A model generated the notes under the pieces. That model was given only the letters and a program-made list of their open reading frames with translations. It ran no database searches and had not been told where the DNA came from. A DNA stretch of 64,000 nt from Argopecten irradians (Eukaryota; Mollusca; Bivalvia; Pectinida; Pectinidae), in NCBI RefSeq assembly GCF_041381155.1, contig NC_091134.1, positions 11,782,008-11,846,007 on the forward strand, written 5' to 3'. Positions 37,976-58,700 of this stretch are shown here, piece after piece. Every line of letters starts with the position of its first letter. The stretch's first letter is position 1. A program made the position numbers and the translations under genes.

Positions 37976-40900
37976 AAACTATTCTAAAATAATGAATTTT
38001 TATCAATTTGATCGACTATACGGCATGCGACAACTCGACAATGCGCCATGTGACAATGTGTTTGTCGCATAGCGCATTGTCGGACTGTCGCATGGCATAA
38101 TGTTGCACTGTCGCATGGCGCATTGTAGTATTGATTGATGTCTCGAAAAAAGCACATCATACTTACTGCTATCACACTAATTATACACTGCTTTTTCTCG
38201 CAAATGGTAACCACGAGAGGTGGCCGTACCATATGTTTTAGTTTTCGAGACCCGAGTGACGACAGGAAAGGCAACATGGTAAGCATCCTTGGATGACGAC
38301 GGATGACCTCCATGAATGGTAAACTGAAATCGTCACGAACTACAAACTGTAAGTATAAAAACTTGACAAACATATATCCAGAATATCTGCTCATATTAAT
38401 TGTAAAGACACTGTTATAAAGATTGAATTTGTCTCACTGTCGCATGACATATTGGCGCACTGTCGCATGAGTCATTGTCGTATTCATTGATGTTTCGAAA
38501 TAAGCAAGTCATATATACTGTTATTACAATAATTATAAACTTCTTTCTCTGCAAATGGTAACCACGTGGGGTGGCCATTTTTGAAGACTATATGTTTCAG
38601 TTTTCCGAGACCCGAGTGACGACAGAAAGGGGAACATGGTAAGCATTCTTAGATGTCGACTCATGGTTAACCTCCATGAATGGTAAACTGGAGTCATGAA
38701 AAACTACCAACTGCATTTAGGTAAGTAAACTTTAACTTACGTAATTGTAAAGAAATTATTCTAAATAATGAATGTTTATCAATTTGTGCAACTACACGCC
38801 ATGCGACAACTCGAAAATGTGCCATGCGACAGTTTGTTGCATAGCGCATTGTCGCACTATCGCATGATCAATTATCGCACTGTCGCATGACACATTGTCG
38901 TGTTCATTGACGTTTTGAAATAAGCAAGTCATATATATATACTGTTATTACAATAATTATATACTTCTTTCTCTGCAAATGGTAACCACATGGGGTGGCC
39001 ATTTTTGAAGACTATATGTTTCAGTTTTCCGAGACCCGATTGACGACAGAAAGGGGAACATGGTAAGCATCCTTAGATGTCGACCCACGGTTAACCTCCA
39101 TGAATGGTAAACTGGAGTCATGAAAAACTACCAACTGCATTTAGGTAAGTATACTTTAACTTACGTAATTCCAAAGAAATCATTCTAAATAATGAATGCT
39201 TATCAATTTGTGCAACTACACGCCATGCGACAACTCGACAATGCGCCATGCGACAGTTTGTTTGTTTGTTGCATAGCGCATTGTCTTGTTTTCGCATAGC
39301 ATATTTTCGCACTATCGCATGACACATTGTCGTATTCATTGACGTTTCGAAATAAGCACTGCTATCACACTAATTATATACTTCTTTTTCTTGCAAATGG
39401 TAACCGCGTACGGGGGCCGTTTTTAGAGACTGTATGTTTCAGTTTTCCGAGACCCGAGTGACGACAGAAAGGGGAACATGGTAAGCATCCTTAGATGTCG
39501 ACTCACGGTTAACCTCCATGAATGGTAAACTGGAGTCATGAAAAACTACCAACTGCATTTAGGTAAGTAAACTTTAAATAACGTAATTGTAAAGAAATTA
39601 TTCTAAATAATGAATGTTTATCAATTTGTGCAACTACACGCCATGCGACAACTCGAAAATGCGCCATGCGACAGTTTGTTGCATAGCGCATTGTCGTGTT
39701 TTCGCATAGCATATTGTCGCACTATCGCATGACCCATTATCGCACTGTCGCATGACACATTGTCGTGTTCATTGACGTTTCGAAATAAGCAAGTCATATA
39801 TACTGTTATTACAATAATTATATACTTCTTTCTCTGCAAATGGTAACCACGTGGGGTGGCCATTTTTGAAGACTATATGTTTCAGTTTTCCGAGACCCGA
39901 GTGACGACAGAAAGGGGAACATGGTAAGCATTCTTAGATGTCGACTCGTGGTTAACCTCCATGAATGGTAAACTGGAGTCATGAAAAACTACCAACTGCA
40001 TTTAGGTAAGTATACTTTAACTTACGTAAAAACTTACTTAAAAAATCATTCTAAATAATGAATGTTTATCAATTTGTGCAACTACACGCCATGCGACAAC
40101 TCGACAATGCGCCATGCGACAGTTTGTTTGTTGCATAGCGCATTGTCGTGTTTTCGCATAGCATATTGTCGCACTATCGCATGACACATTGTCGTATTCA
40201 TTGACGTTTTGAAATAAGCACGTCATATACACTGCTATCACACTAATTATATACTTCTTTTTCTTGCTAATGGTAACCACGTACGGTGGCCGTTTTTAGA
40301 GACTATATGTTTCAGTTTTTTGAGACCCGAGCGACGACAGAGAGGGCAACATGGTAAGCATCCTTAGATGTCGACTCATGGTTAACCTCCATGAATGGTA
40401 AACTGGAGTCATGAAAAACTACCAACTACATTTAGGTAGGTATACTTTGTTTTTAGTATTTGTTAAGAAACTATTCTAAATAATGAATGTTTATCAATTT
40501 GTGCAACTACACGCCATGCGATAACTCGACAATGCGCCATGTGACAATGTTTTTGTCGCATAGTGCATTGTCGTACTGTTGCATGGCATAATGTTGCAAT
40601 GTCGCATGGCGCATTGTTGTATTGATTGATATCTCGAAATAAGCACATCATACATACTGCTATCACACTAATTATACACTTCTTTCTTTCACAAATGGTA
40701 ACCACGTGAGTTGGCCGTTTTTGGAGACCATATGTTTCAGTTTTCCGAGACACGAGTGACGACAGGAATGGCAACATGGTAAGCATCCTTGGAGGCGACG
40801 GATGGTTTACCTCCATGAATCGTCACAAACTACAAACTGCATTTAGGTAAGTATAAAAACGTGAACAACGTATATCCAGAATACCTGCTCAGTTTAATTG

Positions 40901-41480
40901 TAAAGGCAGTGTTCTAAATAATGAATTTGTATAAATTTGTGCGACTATACGTCATGCGACAACTCCACAATGCGCCATGCGACTGTGTGTTTGTTGCATA
41001 TCGCATTGACGTATTGTCGCATGACATTTTGTTGCACTATCGCATGGCATATTGACGTACTGTCGCATGACCCATTGTCGTATTCATTGACGTTTCGAAA
41101 TAAGCATATCAATATATACTGCTATCACACTGATTATATATACTTCTTTCTCTTTCAAATGGAAACCACGAGAGGTGGCCGTTTTTGGAGACTATGTTTC
41201 AGTTTTCCGAAACCCGAGTGACGACAGGAAGGGCAACATGGTAAGCATCCTTTGATGTGGACTCATGGTTAACCTCAATGAATGGTAAGCTGGTATCTTG
41301 AAAAACTACCAACTGCACTTTGGTAAGTATACTTTAAGTTAATTTAATGCTAAGTTAATTGTAATGAAACTTCTAAATAATCATTTTTATCAATTTGATC
41401 GACTTTAAGCCGTGCGACAACTCGACCATGCGCCATGTGACAATGTGTTTGTCGCATAGGGTATTGTCGCACTATCGCAT
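37976..41480 (+). repeat. GTCGCATG satellite array, second block
   Basis: About nine units. Those from 38.6 to 40.4 kb are the most alike, with an almost invariant end AAACTGGAGTCATGAAAAAC, TACCAACTGCATTTAGG, TAAGTA, which points to recent local amplification. Minus-strand frames containing CRMAHCRVVAWRVVAQIDK recur because the unit lacks stops there. Confidence 0.9.
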
Positions 41481-52165: not shown

Positions 52166-52714
52166 CTAAGATGTGGACACTGTAGGTAAAGTCATTTCGC
52201 CAGATTCTTCCGGAAGTATGCTTCTCGAATTTCGCGCCACACGTGACCTCGGGCGCTTACACAGTTGGTGGCGCACAAATCGCTTCAGCATTTTCCATTG
52301 GGCACATAAGACTGGGAAGTCACATGTAATAATCACTGCGATTACTGCTATCAGTGTAAGAAGCGCCACAGTTCCTATACTGACAGACAAAGGCCTATGA
52401 TCTGCAATACTATGTAACCTCCGCTGAAACTTATTTGTTTGTTTAACATCAATTTTCAAGTCTGCTACAACATCATTAAAAGACGTCCCAACAGAGCTTC
52501 TTGTTGTGGTGGCATTTTGATGAGCATAACAACAGGAGAGACAACTCGAAAGTCTATGTGGATAGCAAGCATTACTGTTTGTAGTCATTACACTCACAGA
52601 TGTGGTATATACCGTGTTCGAACTTGGAACTGTCGTGATGGTATTTGTAGTTATGGTTTGTGGAACTGTCGTGTTGGTATTTGTAGTTATGGTTTTGTGG
52701 TAACATGGCATTTG
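52166..52714 (-). CDS. Tandem duplicate of the lectin gene's last exon
   Basis: A copy of the terminal exon at 52718-53358, offset by exactly 552 bp (184 codons), so its frame continues that of the first copy after the first stop. It encodes the end of the Thr-rich stalk (TITTNTNTTVPQ), the Cys-rich segment (ACYPHRLSSCLSCCYAHQNA), the coil-like stretch, the transmembrane helix and the tail. It differs by a few bases (for example SILPEE against SIFPEE). No intron acceptor sits right before it, since the copied block starts inside the Thr repeats. It may serve as an alternative terminal exon, be silent, or be an assembly artefact. Confidence 0.6.
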   Translation of the reverse strand, partial: QMPCYHKTITTNTNTTVPQTITTNTITTVPSSNTVYTTSVSVMTTNSNACYPHRLSSCLSCCYAHQNATTTRSSVGTSFNDVVADLKIDVKQTNKFQRRLHSIADHRPLSVSIGTVALLTLIAVIAVIITCDFPVLCAQWKMLKRFVRHQLCKRPRSRVARNSRSILPEESGEMTLPTVSTS

Positions 52715-52717
52715 AAG

Positions 52718-55700
52718 CTAAGATGTGGACACTGTAGGTAAAGTCATTTCGCCAGATTCTTCCGGAAATATGCTTCTCGAATTTCGCGCCACACGTGACC
52801 TCGGGCGCTTACACAGTTGGTGGCGCACAAATCGCTTCAGCATTTTCCATTGGGCACATAAGACTGGGAAGTCACATGTAATAATCACTGCGATTACTGC
52901 TATCAGAGTAAGAAGCGCCACAGTTCCTATACTGACAGACAAAGGCCTATGATCTGCAATACTATGTAACCTCCGCTGAAACTTATTTGTTTGTTTAACA
53001 TCAATTTTCAAGTCTGCTACAACATCATTAAAAGACGTCCCAACAGAGCTTCTTGTTGTGGTGGCATTTTGATGAGCATAACAACAGGAGAGACAACTCG
53101 AAAGTCTATGTGGATAGCAAGCATTACTGTTTGTAGTCATTACACTCACAGATGTGGTATATACCGTGTTCGAACTTGGAACTGTCGTGATGGTATTTGT
53201 AGTTATGGTTTGTGGAACTGTCGTGTTGGTATTTGTAGTTATGGTTTGTGGAACTGTCGTGTTGGCATTTGAAGTTATAGTTTGTGGAACTGTCGTGTCG
53301 GCGCTAGCGACTCCACCAGAGATCACAGCGCCAGAACATGTATTGGAATCCAAAGGATCTGTAAATGTAATAATAAAAGACGTAAACTCATTAAATATCC
53401 AGACATGTCAGAGTATATGTTTCAGTAGGATATCAATATAGTAGGCACAGTGACACACCACATATATATATATATATATATATATATTCAAAGTTAATTT
53501 TCCAAAACTATGAATCAAAAGTATCCGCCTTCCGGTCGACTTTTTTTTGCAAATGACAAACGATAAACAAGAAATATAGTTAAAATAAGATTTGATTGAC
53601 ATATTACAGTAAAAAGATTAGTTGATTCTATATCTAGAAACACCACATTAGATATTATACATTGAAATATTGTGGGGGACTATTTTTATTGATATAAAAC
53701 TGGCGCATTGTTCGAAATCAGCTGATCGATGCACGAGAATTGTTGTATTCATAGTGTATTCATAGTGTTTTCATAGAGAAAGTTTGTTTTCGTCAGTTGG
53801 TTGATTCATATAGTGACGAAACACTCAGAATGTAAATATAAAACATCTGAACACACAGGTCCTCAAAATAAAAACATATGAACACAAAGGTCGTCAAAAA
53901 AACATCGGAATACACAGGTCGTCAAAAAACATCGGAACACACAGGTCGTCAAAAAATATCGGAACACACAGGTCGTCAAAAAACTTCTGAACGCACAGAT
54001 CGTCAAAATAAAAACATATGAACACACAGATCGTCAAAATAAAAACATATGAACACAAAGGTCGTCAAAAAAATATCTGAACACACAGGTCGTCAAAAAA
54101 AACCACCAAACGCTTATTATTTTATCAAAAAATAAAATTGATAAAAAATTATACTCTTAAAAGTTATTTTGCCCACAAGAGTGTGGTTAAGAGTTTTTGT
54201 AGTTTATCTTGTTAAAACTGTGTTATTCTTACCGATGACACAGAAGCAGACGGCGGGAATGTGGTCGTTACAATGTGTGGTGTACCATTCATAACTGACT
54301 GGATGCATGTAGACACAGTACTTGAAGGACTGTGGTTCCGCGGTTGCCCAGTTTGCGTAGGTCAGAACTCCACCTGACCATGTCTGGAAATTCCCTGTAT
54401 TAGTTATATCCCTTACTCCTATATAAACGTTTTCCGAAACACTGTAATTAAGTAAGACATATTAATGATGATGATTTTATATGTCTTCCAAACGAAGTTA
54501 GGCGACCAAATGTTTTGCACGCGATTGTTATTTCTTCCACTTTCTACCACAGTGAAGGCTTCAGGAGCTTTTCTCACAAACTAATTGGCGGAAGATGGCC
54601 TCCTGGATGTATTTACTGTTTTTGTATTTCGGTCTCTTTTGTTGACAATTGGTATATTCAGGTCTATAGGATTCCGAACAACATAACAAATTTTTAAAAG
54701 ATGAAATGCCATGTTAACAAATTCAATTGGAAGCCTCTGATCGGTCGAATTTTGATCGTTGTTCGAACAAAGCTGAAAATTGGTATATCTTACGAATTAA
54801 ATCGCCGATATTATGTTAAAATGTTTTCTTGGTTTCAGGAAGTATGCAACTACATGTAAATGAATATTGATATAGCATCTATGTCAACATAAATGCCAGA
54901 GCGTTGCAGACATCCGATCTTCCTATTGCGCATGACAGTTTTAATTCTGTAAAAACTATAATTAAAAAGTAAAAAATTAAAAGCAAAAAACTGTAAAAAA
55001 AAAAGTCTGATGACTTCTTTACAACATATCATCATTTTATTAGAGCTTTTCGCCTATGGGTGAAAAGACCTGTTTTTGTTCTGTTTTTTTGTTTTTCTTC
55101 ATTGAAGGTCAAATGGGTCAAATGGGTCAAATAACCTTAAATCTTTAAACAACATCTTGTCAAGTTCTGGATGGTCTAATGATCTGATATTGGGACTGTG
55201 CGTGCGGATATAAAGGACTAACACGTTTGTCAAGAGAAAAGCCTGTCAAATTGCCCAATGGCAATTTCTAGTTGATAAAATGATTTTACTATAAATCCTG
55301 GTTTAATGATATATCGCCTGAAGGGACATTAATACACACCTCCATGTTGATCCTAGTGCCGTCTTAACAACCGTCTCGTGCTCTGCTGATGGTAGACTGG
55401 CAAGTGTACCGCCGTTCTGAGCACACATGATCGCCTGAAAGTTTGACGATTGGCCAGTACTTTTCAGCCAGTAACACCACGTGAGGCCACTGTTGTCTAT
55501 ATAGGAAACTGGGGATGGTGTGACATCAGGGCATCCGATAATAGAGGATCTGGCTAAAACGATATCGAGAAAACATGCGATAATAGAGGATCTGGCTAAA
55601 ACGATATCGAGAAAACATGCTATATTAGAGGATCTGGCTAAAACGACATCGAAAGGACTTGAAATATTAGAGAATATGGCATTAAAGATATCGAGAGGCA

Positions 55701-58700
55701 AGCCATATTAGAGTATATGGCAAAAACGATATCGAGAAGATATTGAGGATCTGGCTAAAAAGACATCGAGAGGACATGCGATATTACAGGATCTGGCTAA
55801 AACGATATCGAGAAAACATGCGATATTGATGATCTGGCTAAAAAGACATTGAGAGGACATGCAACATTACAGGATCTGGCTAAAACGATATCGAGAAAAC
55901 ATGCGATATTGAGGATCTGGCTAAAAAGACATCGAGAGGACATGCAATATTACAGGATCTGGCTAAAACGACATCGAGAAAACATGCGATATTGAGGATC
56001 TGGCTAAAAAGGCATCGAGAGGACATGCGATATTAGAGAATATGGCATAAAAGATATCGAAAGGCAAGCCATATAGAGCTTATGGCAAAAACGATACCGA
56101 GAGGACATTCGATATTACAGAATCTGGCTAAAACGATATCGAGAAAACATGCGATATTAGAGTATATGGTAAAAACGATATATCGGGAGGACATTCGATA
56201 TTAGAGGGTCTAGCTGACACATCGAGAGGGCATCCGATAATAGAGGATCTGGCTAAAATGATATTGAGAGAACATCCGATGTTAAAGGATCTGCCTTCAA
56301 CTATATTGAGATCTTCAAAGATGATCTGGCAAAAACGACATCGTGGACATCCTATAATAGAGGATCATGCTAAAACGATATAATGGTATTTCTAGAATTG
56401 AATATAGCGTGTGGTACTTGGAGGTTACATCCATGTGAAAGGATATAGCGTGTGGTACTGGGAGGTGACATCCATGTGAAGGGGTACAGAGTGTGGTACT
56501 GGGAGATGACATCCATGTGAAGGGATTCAGAGTGTGGTACTGGGAGGTGACATCCATGTGAAGGGATACAGAGTGTGGTACTGGGAGATGACATCCATGT
56601 GAAGTGGGATACAGAGTGTGGTACTGGGAGGTGACATCCATGTGAAGGGATACAGAGTGTGGTACTGGGAGATGACATCCATGTGACGGGATACAGTGTG
56701 TGGTACTGGGAGATGACATCCATGTGAAGGGATTCAGAGTGTGGTACTGGGAGATGACATCCATGTGAAGGGATACAGAGTGTGGTACTGGGAGGTGACA
56801 TCCATGTGAAGGGATACAGAGTGTGGTACTGGGAGATGACATCCATGTGAAGGGATTACAGAGTGTGGTACTGGGAGATGACATCCATGTGAAGGGGTAC
56901 AGAGTGTGGTACTGGGAGATGACATCCATGTGAAGGGGTACAGAGTGTGGTACTGGGAGGTGACATCCATGTGAAGGGATACAGAGTGTGGTACTGGGAG
57001 ATGACATCCATGTGAAGGGATACAGAGTGTGGTACTGGGAGATGACATCCATGTGAAGGGATACAGAGTGTGGTACTGGGAGATGACATCCATGTGAAGG
57101 GATACAGAGTGTGGTACTGGGAGATGACATCCATGTGAAGGGATACAGAGTGTGGTACTGGGAGGTGACATCCATGTGAAGGGATTCAGAGTGTGGTACT
57201 GGGAGATGACATCCATGTGAAGGGATACAGAGTGTGGTACTGGGAGATGACATCCATGTGAAGGGATACAGAGTGTGGTACTGGGAGATGACATCCATGT
57301 GAAGGGATACAGAGTGTGGTACTGGGAGATGACATCCATGTGAAGGGATACAGAGTGTGGTACTGGGAGATGACATCCATGTGAAGGGGTACAGAGTGTG
57401 GTACTGGGAGATGACATCCATGTGAAGGGATACAGAGTGTGGTACTGGGAGATGACATCCATGTGAAGGGATACAGAGTGTGGTACTGGGAGGTGACATC
57501 CATGTGAAGGGATACAGAGTGTGGTACTGGGAGATGACATCCATGTGAAGGGATACAGAGTGTGGTACTGGGAGATGACATCCACGGTGATGTGGTACTG
57601 GGATGTGACATCCATGTGAAGGGATACAGAGTGTGGTACTGGGAGATGACATCCATGTGAAGGGATACAGAGTGTGGTACTGGGAGTTGACATCCATGTG
57701 AAGGGATACAGAGTGTGGTACTGGGAGATGACATCCATGTGAAGGGATACAGAGAGTGTGGTACTGGGAGGTGATTTTTCATGTGAAGGGATTCAGAGTG
57801 TGGTACTGGGAGATGACATCCATGTGAAGGGGTACAGAGTGTGGTACTGGGAGATGACATCCATGTGAAGGGATACAGAGTGTGGTACTGGGAGGTGATT
57901 TTCATGTTATATTCATTCATTTACATATATATCTATCACATATATTCACTCATCCATATCCTTACATATATCCATCCATATATTCACTAATCCATATCCT
58001 TACATATATCCATCCACATATTCACTCATCCATATCCTTACATCACCATCCACGTTTTCACTCATCCATATCCCAACATACCCATCAACATATTCACTCA
58101 TCCATATTCTTACATATATTCACCCAAATGTTTACTCATCCATATCTTTAAATACCCATCCATATATTCACTAATCCATATCCTTACATATATCCATCCA
58201 CATATTCACTCATCTATATCCTTACATAACCATCCACGTTTTCACTCATCCAAATCCCAACATACCCATCAACATATTCACTCATCCATGTCCTTACATA
58301 TACCCATCCACGTTTTCACTCATCCATATCCTTACACATCCATCCATATATTCACTCATCCATATCCTTACATATATCCATCCACATATCCACTCATCTA
58401 TATCCTTACATATACCCATTCACGTATTCACTCATCCATATCCTTACACATCCATCCACATATTCACTCATCCATATCCTTACATATTCCATCCACATAT
58501 TCATTCATCCATATCCTTACACATCCATCCACATATTCACTCATTTACATCCTTAACTATCCATTCACATATTCATTCATCCATATCCTTACATATATCC
58601 ATCCACATATTCAATAATATACCCATATTCAGTCCCACATTTAACCAACTTACCTTTTTGAAACAACCAGGAACTGATGAACAGCATGAAAAGCTACAAC

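Follow-up and report, generated by a model that had tools for sequence, protein, structure and literature searches.

A 42-bp minisatellite spans the intron-1/exon-2 junction of a predicted C-type lectin gene in Argopecten irradians

Background

Mirages, in which minisatellite-like tandem copies extend across an intron-exon boundary, have been described in amphioxus in Adh3 and in the globin genes BflGb6 and BflGb9 (PMC3087553), and TnC and PGBD5 have been added to these cases (PMC3902484). Their reported unit length is 10-72 bp in Adh3 and about 150-160 bp in the globins, and the BflGb6 mirage, which combines the 3’ end of an intron with the 5’ part of exon 2, numbers 6 units in one haplotype and 3 in another (PMC3087553). 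According to the authors of the globin paper, reverse transcription-polymerase chain reaction and Adh3 data suggest regular splicing, and mirages are proposed as a source of new introns (PMC3087553). Here we describe a 42-bp minisatellite, array 1, that lies across the first acceptor of a predicted C-type lectin gene of Argopecten irradians. The gene is on the minus strand of the analysed stretch of 64,000 nt (NC_091134.1, positions 11,782,008 to 11,846,007; hereafter the window), and coordinates are positions in this window.

Splice sites can also be copied at the other end of an intron: the minisatellite in intron 7 of human coagulation factor VII holds copies of a donor (5’) splice site beside the authentic one. 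Other human tandem repeats at exon-intron boundaries are reported to alter splicing (PMC2812944), and Rlec C-type lectins of prawns are described as carrying variable coding tandem repeats (PMC7536079). In the titles and abstract openings that our literature search covered, no junction-spanning minisatellite was found in a mollusc or a lectin gene, an absence that is not proof.

Results

The array copies an acceptor together with both of its flanks

The repeat runs into the first C-type lectin exon (exon 2) of the gene.

55528 to 56381, minus strand: array 1, 21 unit positions with a period of 42 bp (Tandem Repeats Finder, 20.9 copies, 74% matches, score 804)

The likely lectin acceptor, 55553, does lie inside a 42-bp minisatellite, as the initial annotation had stated. 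In each unit, about 26 nt correspond to the start of exon 2 and about 16 nt to the end of the intron (a polypyrimidine tract, often with TTTTAG), so that most units are ready-made 3’ splice sites. That every unit repeats the tract and TTTTAG was an overstatement; the units copy the junction, but TTTTAG occurs in just 13 of the 21 unit positions, with CCAGAT next in 12 of those 13. The multiple-of-three unit is correct as a period; complete units range from 34 to 44 bp and measure exactly 42 bp in 10 of 20 cases. TTTTAG followed by CCAGATCC is found at 55553, 55595 and 55637, spaced 42 bp apart.

The unit at 56252 matches exon 2 without a difference over the exon’s first 26 nt and diverges beyond. 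Aligned to exon 2, the unit consensus scored 46, a value reached by 0 of 300 shuffles (maximum 33). Across the 846-Mb genome, all six exact matches to the unit core and five of six one-mismatch matches fall inside array 1; with up to two mismatches allowed, matches number 69 (14 inside the array) compared with 42 for a reversed-pattern control, which places those outside the array near background. Given the identity between exon and unit and the locus specificity of the core, array 1 arose in place by copying of the acceptor with both flanks. The anatomy, this identity and the locus specificity are direct observations, as are the reading-frame outcomes given below. The array is real, confined to this locus and of an already known kind: as in mirages, its tandem units hold both an intron end and an exon start, many of them keep splice signals (TTTTAG in the 13 positions above) and the 42-bp unit is within the reported length range. 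We consider array 1 to have arisen by tandem amplification, in situ, of the intron-1/exon-2 boundary, as a repeat of the mirage kind whose upstream copies act as decoys (probability about 0.7).

The predicted product is a single-pass membrane lectin

The gene model comprises the following features.

58654 to 58687, minus strand: candidate first coding exon, MLFISSWLFQK plus 1 nt, phase 1, donor AAG/GTAAGT; a weak signal peptide, uncertain
55554 to 58653, minus strand: intron 1, 3100 bp in the present model, 97% covered by tandem-repeat arrays
55340 to 55553, minus strand: exon 2, coding for the first half of the C-type lectin domain, with its acceptor in phase 1 before 55553 and its donor in phase 2 after 55340
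54233 to 54441, minus strand: exon 3, coding for the second half of that domain
52718 to 53358, minus strand: exon 4, encoding the Thr-rich stalk (in which a 36-bp unit is repeated), the transmembrane segment, the cytoplasmic tail and the stop

Exons 55553-55340, 54441-54233 and 53358-52718 have GT/AG ends and agreeing phases, and join into a single open frame. On the spliced model, Pfam Lectin_C scores 44.4 bits (curated cut-off 22.6, E=3.1e-11), and mannose receptor 2 is among the solved relatives. The domain order is an N-terminal lectin domain, a Thr-rich stalk, a membrane segment and a tail; with one transmembrane segment, VSIGTVALLTLIAVIAVII, in exon 4 (mean hydropathy 2.82), the product is predicted to be a single-pass membrane C-type lectin. 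Canonical sugar-binding motifs of C-type lectins are EPN or QPD and WND, although membership of the domain family does not require them. Neither was found in canonical form in the lectin sequence, where EPQ replaces EPN and WYTTHCND lacks the WND triplet; these departures would lower the claim of ordinary calcium-dependent sugar binding and leave domain membership unaffected.

Within exon 4, a 36-bp repeat at 53177-53298 encodes the TTVPQTITTNTN-like units of the stalk. Past the stop codon, 52166-52717 is a near-identical tandem copy of the terminal exon 52718-53358 (539 aligned bases, 99.3% identity), probably 3’ untranslated region or a dead copy. The C-terminal exon has weak same-strand matches downstream of two other lectin exons, at C12:31895311 (3’ of L004, E=0.08) and C12:31991967 (3’ of L007, E=0.04, with one stop); drawn from 87 matches at E up to 1, they are no more than suggestive.

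Exon 1 is the weakest part of the model

The donor after 58654, AAG/GTAAGT, was borne out. It is among three MAGGTAAGT matches on both strands of the window, where 0.89 are expected and three or more occurred in 6 of 100 shuffles. In the upstream part of the window, peptides with a hydrophobic stretch reaching a donor of score 6 or above are limited to three frames, all of which end at 58654; those that can be joined are MLFISSWLFQK (phase 1) and MYSYFGVVAFHAVHQFLVVSK (phase 2). The next 10 kb upstream gave no signal-exon candidate at a donor cut-off of 5. A laxer scan over 18.4 kb passed no phase-1 candidate through its filters and yielded five phase-2 candidates, all past the end of the window; their donors are weak (2.6-4.4), and MLINIINRILILTFVLYVVFFSFLS, 1.5 kb past the end, ranks best (hydropathy 2.96, donor 3.8). 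Positive controls for the scan were the signal exons of the paralogues L007 (MESAIVLYSVIIAVYLLGFTLGSHA) and L017 (MVTDILCFVIIAVYLNGITDGTHT), both with phase-1 donors. Compared with these, MLFISSWLFQK is short and weakly hydrophobic, and its description as a signal peptide is not upheld. DNA homology of exon 1 to the paralogue junctions did not rise above shuffles. In L003, the closest paralogue, a single phase-1 row turned up for exon 1, the 11-residue MHAVCCVYVVR, and it was not accepted. The signal exon is thus uncertain.

The same scans bear on whether the gene is decaying, with no good signal exon, a repeat-ridden intron and an array without consequence. The failure of phase-1 candidates over 18.4 kb, the weak donors of the phase-2 ones and the confinement of a strong donor to the short 58654 candidates all favor such decay; we nonetheless regard it as unlikely given a model that is open across 365 codons with matching phases and a lectin domain at the E-value above.

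The exon-proximal acceptor is the likely one

The acceptor at 55553 is the nearest to the exon, is in phase 1 and stands 7 residues ahead of the first Cys of the domain, a distance that is also 7 in L003 and is 6 in L004 and L006. Because of its phase and this spacing, shared with the closest paralogue, 55553 is likely the real acceptor. On a simple acceptor score, a phase-1 site comes out top for 13 of the 15 paralogues scored from a first set (17 loci; L005 left out) and for 7 of 9 from a second. Were the true acceptor instead 55508 (CCCCAG/TTTCC, also phase 1), outside the array, array 1 would be purely intronic, and the frame would stay intact. This is improbable: 55508 would delete the first Cys, found in 14 of 14 aligned sequences (3 of the 17 first-set loci being outside the alignment), it scores 0.3 against 3.0 for 55553, and the closest paralogues begin 6-7 residues ahead of that Cys.

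Two upstream copies keep the reading frame

The lectin frame had been described as open through about three upstream units. It is indeed open from 55707 down to exon 2, but the three TTTTAG acceptors that it holds amount to two extra ones.

55595, minus strand: first exon base of an in-frame phase-1 acceptor copy, adding 14 residues
55637, minus strand: first exon base of an in-frame phase-1 acceptor copy, adding 28 residues

With the candidate exon 1 ending at 58654 (phase 1), 3 of 13 TTTTAG acceptors lead to full-length proteins (366, 380 and 394 codons including the stop; exon 2 of 214, 256 and 298 nt), whereas the remaining ten, with exon sizes of 415-1030 nt, run into stops at codons 13-53. 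The proposal that upstream copies add 14-residue blocks in frame thus holds for 55595 and 55637 and fails for the others. A phase-0 donor fits no acceptor within the open region. A phase-2 donor fits CCAG/A at 55549, 55591 and 55633, with proteins again intact, and the exact junction could therefore lie 4 nt further on. Since two of the three gene-strand frames are stop-free in the unit adjoining exon 2, an open frame through the units is weak evidence.

The 14-residue block, ARSSIIACFLDIVL, carries one extra Cys and is hydrophobic (best 10-mer 2.89) because it is a read-through of the polypyrimidine tract. Lying N-terminal to the lectin domain, it is not the stalk it had been taken for, by position or composition; the membrane-side stalk is the 36-bp repeat of exon 4, a likelier place than array 1 for in-frame length variation of the protein.

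Junction-spanning repeats occur at three further lectin exons

Three more lectin exons of the genome have repeats across the junction.

L013 1379-1520, C16 about 10532808-10532949: 54-bp unit, 2.6 copies, across the acceptor; a single open frame holds three phase-1 AGs
L018, C6 about 9297459-9297590: 59-bp unit, 2.2 copies, across the acceptor; period not a multiple of three
L033, C3 about 1.4 kb upstream of 20455696, minus strand: about 28 copies of a 50-bp unit running into a second-half lectin exon

The L033 array fills its locus upstream and is possibly longer. An AG ends the intron part in 27 of 27 unit positions, only the exon-proximal one being in phase and open; the lectin frame of L033 can thus be intact only through the last acceptor. 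The frame is lost at each of the 26 upstream copies, a pattern that fits decoys better than useful variants and that runs counter to frame-keeping as a design.

The best acceptor lies inside an array in 3 of 43 N-terminal lectin exons (the present gene, L013 and L018) and in 1 of 32 second-half exons (L033), or 4 of 75 in total; the count takes distinct lectin exons with loci, the starting case included, and leaves out 37 rows without loci unless already counted. Tandem repeats cover 8.8% of the examined lectin loci, so that enrichment of junction-spanning repeats at lectin exons is not shown by 4 of 75, and special targeting is not needed. A multiple-of-three period as a sign of selection was rejected too, being present in two of the four (42 and 54 against 59 and 50) and not significant.

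Possible use of the upstream copies

In the reading that follows from the initial annotation, upstream acceptors would be spliced often enough to matter, and the number of copies or the choice of site would add 14-residue blocks that diversify the lectin N-terminus. Three in-frame phase-1 acceptors of near-equal score, 42 bp apart, speak for it, and L013 likewise offers three phase-1 AGs at 54-bp spacing, all open. Precedents come from prawn Rlec lectins, whose activity is reported to rise with more 30/33-bp coding repeats (PMC7536079), and from human genes with repeat-driven intron changes, of which 66% are stated also to have a repeat-keeping transcript (PMC2812944). We nevertheless find the proposal unlikely. 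Just two extra copies work and 10 of 13 acceptors end in early stops; half of the complete units differ from 42 bp; each added block is hydrophobic with a further Cys; and the period is not divisible by three in two of the four junction-spanning repeats (59 in L018, 50 in L033), with the upstream copies of L033 all out of frame. Amphioxus genes of the same anatomy are, moreover, reported as regularly spliced (PMC3087553, PMC3902484), and use of the upstream copies is not supported. Copy number would not serve as a general length dial either, since most acceptors lead to stops and, with 55553 used, the protein is untouched by it. At the present array state, variable N-terminal blocks are possible for at most two extra copies.

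It is quite improbable, too, that the in-frame unit supplies the signal peptide, the tract read-through furnishing the hydrophobic core (IIACFLDIVLA) missing from exon 1 and 55595 being the productive site. One block would raise the best N-terminal 10-mer hydropathy from 1.36 to 2.89, where the signal exons of L007 and L017 score 2.96 and 3.15, and the L013 array has an in-frame ATG followed by hydrophobic read-through. However, an Asp sits within the core, and in-frame polypyrimidine tracts tend to be hydrophobic anyway, the intron tails of paralogues reaching 2.37 (L007) and 2.68 (L013). Highly improbable is the broader idea that amplified acceptors ahead of signal-proximal lectin exons (42 bp here and 54 bp in L013, both frame-keeping) form a splice-selectable cassette, in which hydrophobic signal-like blocks translated from the polypyrimidine tract would let minisatellite turnover rewrite the N-terminus and the secretion of recognition lectins.

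Under the amplification-and-decoy explanation, the intron-1/exon-2 boundary would have been amplified in tandem in situ, and the spliceosome would mostly take 55553, giving the 214-nt exon, with the upstream copies as presumed decoys. Sites 55595 and 55637 would be tolerated because they are in frame, while the other upstream acceptors would lead to early stops and probably to mRNA decay. Ordinary turnover of the minisatellite would change the length of the array, in most cases leaving the protein unaffected.

Several results weigh against this explanation. The acceptor at 55553 scores 3.0, eleven other TTTTAG copies score 2.3-4.2 and only 56369 is poor (-0.4); in L033, units score 0.7-3.4, with 3.3 for the proximal one and 3.4 for six copies. 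No local feature marks the exon-proximal acceptor as preferred, here or in L033. RNA folding gave no sign of hidden decoys, with z from -0.95 to 0.72 at 12 sites and -0.50 for the whole array. The likeness of unit DNA to paralogue junctions is not above shuffles, and agreement is in position and phase only. Intron 1 itself is a prediction, because exon 1 is unsecured. A preference for the last acceptor, if any, would have to come from exon length or exonic signals.

The rest of intron 1 and other repeats

Three minisatellites of 42, 41 and 36 bp lie back to back in 55554-58653 and account for the 97% repeat cover of the predicted intron.

56402 to 57898, minus strand: array 2, 41-bp units, not significantly similar to exon 2 or array 1
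57927 to 58613, minus strand: array 3, 36-bp units, beginning 40 bp into the intron from the donor and not significantly similar to the donor flank

Array 2 showed no significant likeness to array 1, array 3 or exon 2; in the last comparison, 264 of 300 shuffles matched its score. A donor-side mirage in array 3 was rejected, the score of 24 between unit and donor flank being equalled by 41 of 300 shuffles. Long open stretches run through array 2 on the gene strand at 56315-57778 (open reading frames of 487 and 352 amino acids among others) and are an artefact of its stop-free 41-bp unit. Elsewhere in the window, 38429-41480 holds a tandem repeat of 424 bp in seven copies, which has an inner period of 23 bp.

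Discussion

With this array, the mirage phenomenon of amphioxus would reach a further animal and a large family of lectins, at least four times within a single genome. How the spliceosome chooses one acceptor among a dozen near-identical ones, or among 27 in L033, is put to a natural test here. Were the upstream copies in use, turnover of the minisatellite would lead directly to variation in the protein encoded by a recognition gene.

The factor VII minisatellite copies a donor, whereas the lectin array copies an acceptor. Prawn Rlec genes share with the present gene the C-type lectin family and multiple-of-three repeats outside the lectin domain; their repeats are described as lying within exon 2 and present in cDNA, whereas here the repeat crosses the acceptor and is mostly intronic (PMC7536079). 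The boundary repeats of recently duplicated human genes are alike in sitting at exon-intron boundaries of recent paralogues and in being able to change splicing, but novel introns with transcript evidence are reported there, while here an existing acceptor appears to have been amplified (PMC2812944). Closest are the amphioxus mirages, for which length polymorphism and regular splicing are reported, whereas the lectin array is known from one assembly, in which it has a single match. In both, minisatellite-like tandem copies cross an intron-exon boundary and carry splice signals along; the present array differs in belonging to a lectin gene, in having about 21 copies of a 42-bp unit where BflGb6 is reported with 6 and 3, and in keeping two of these copies in frame.

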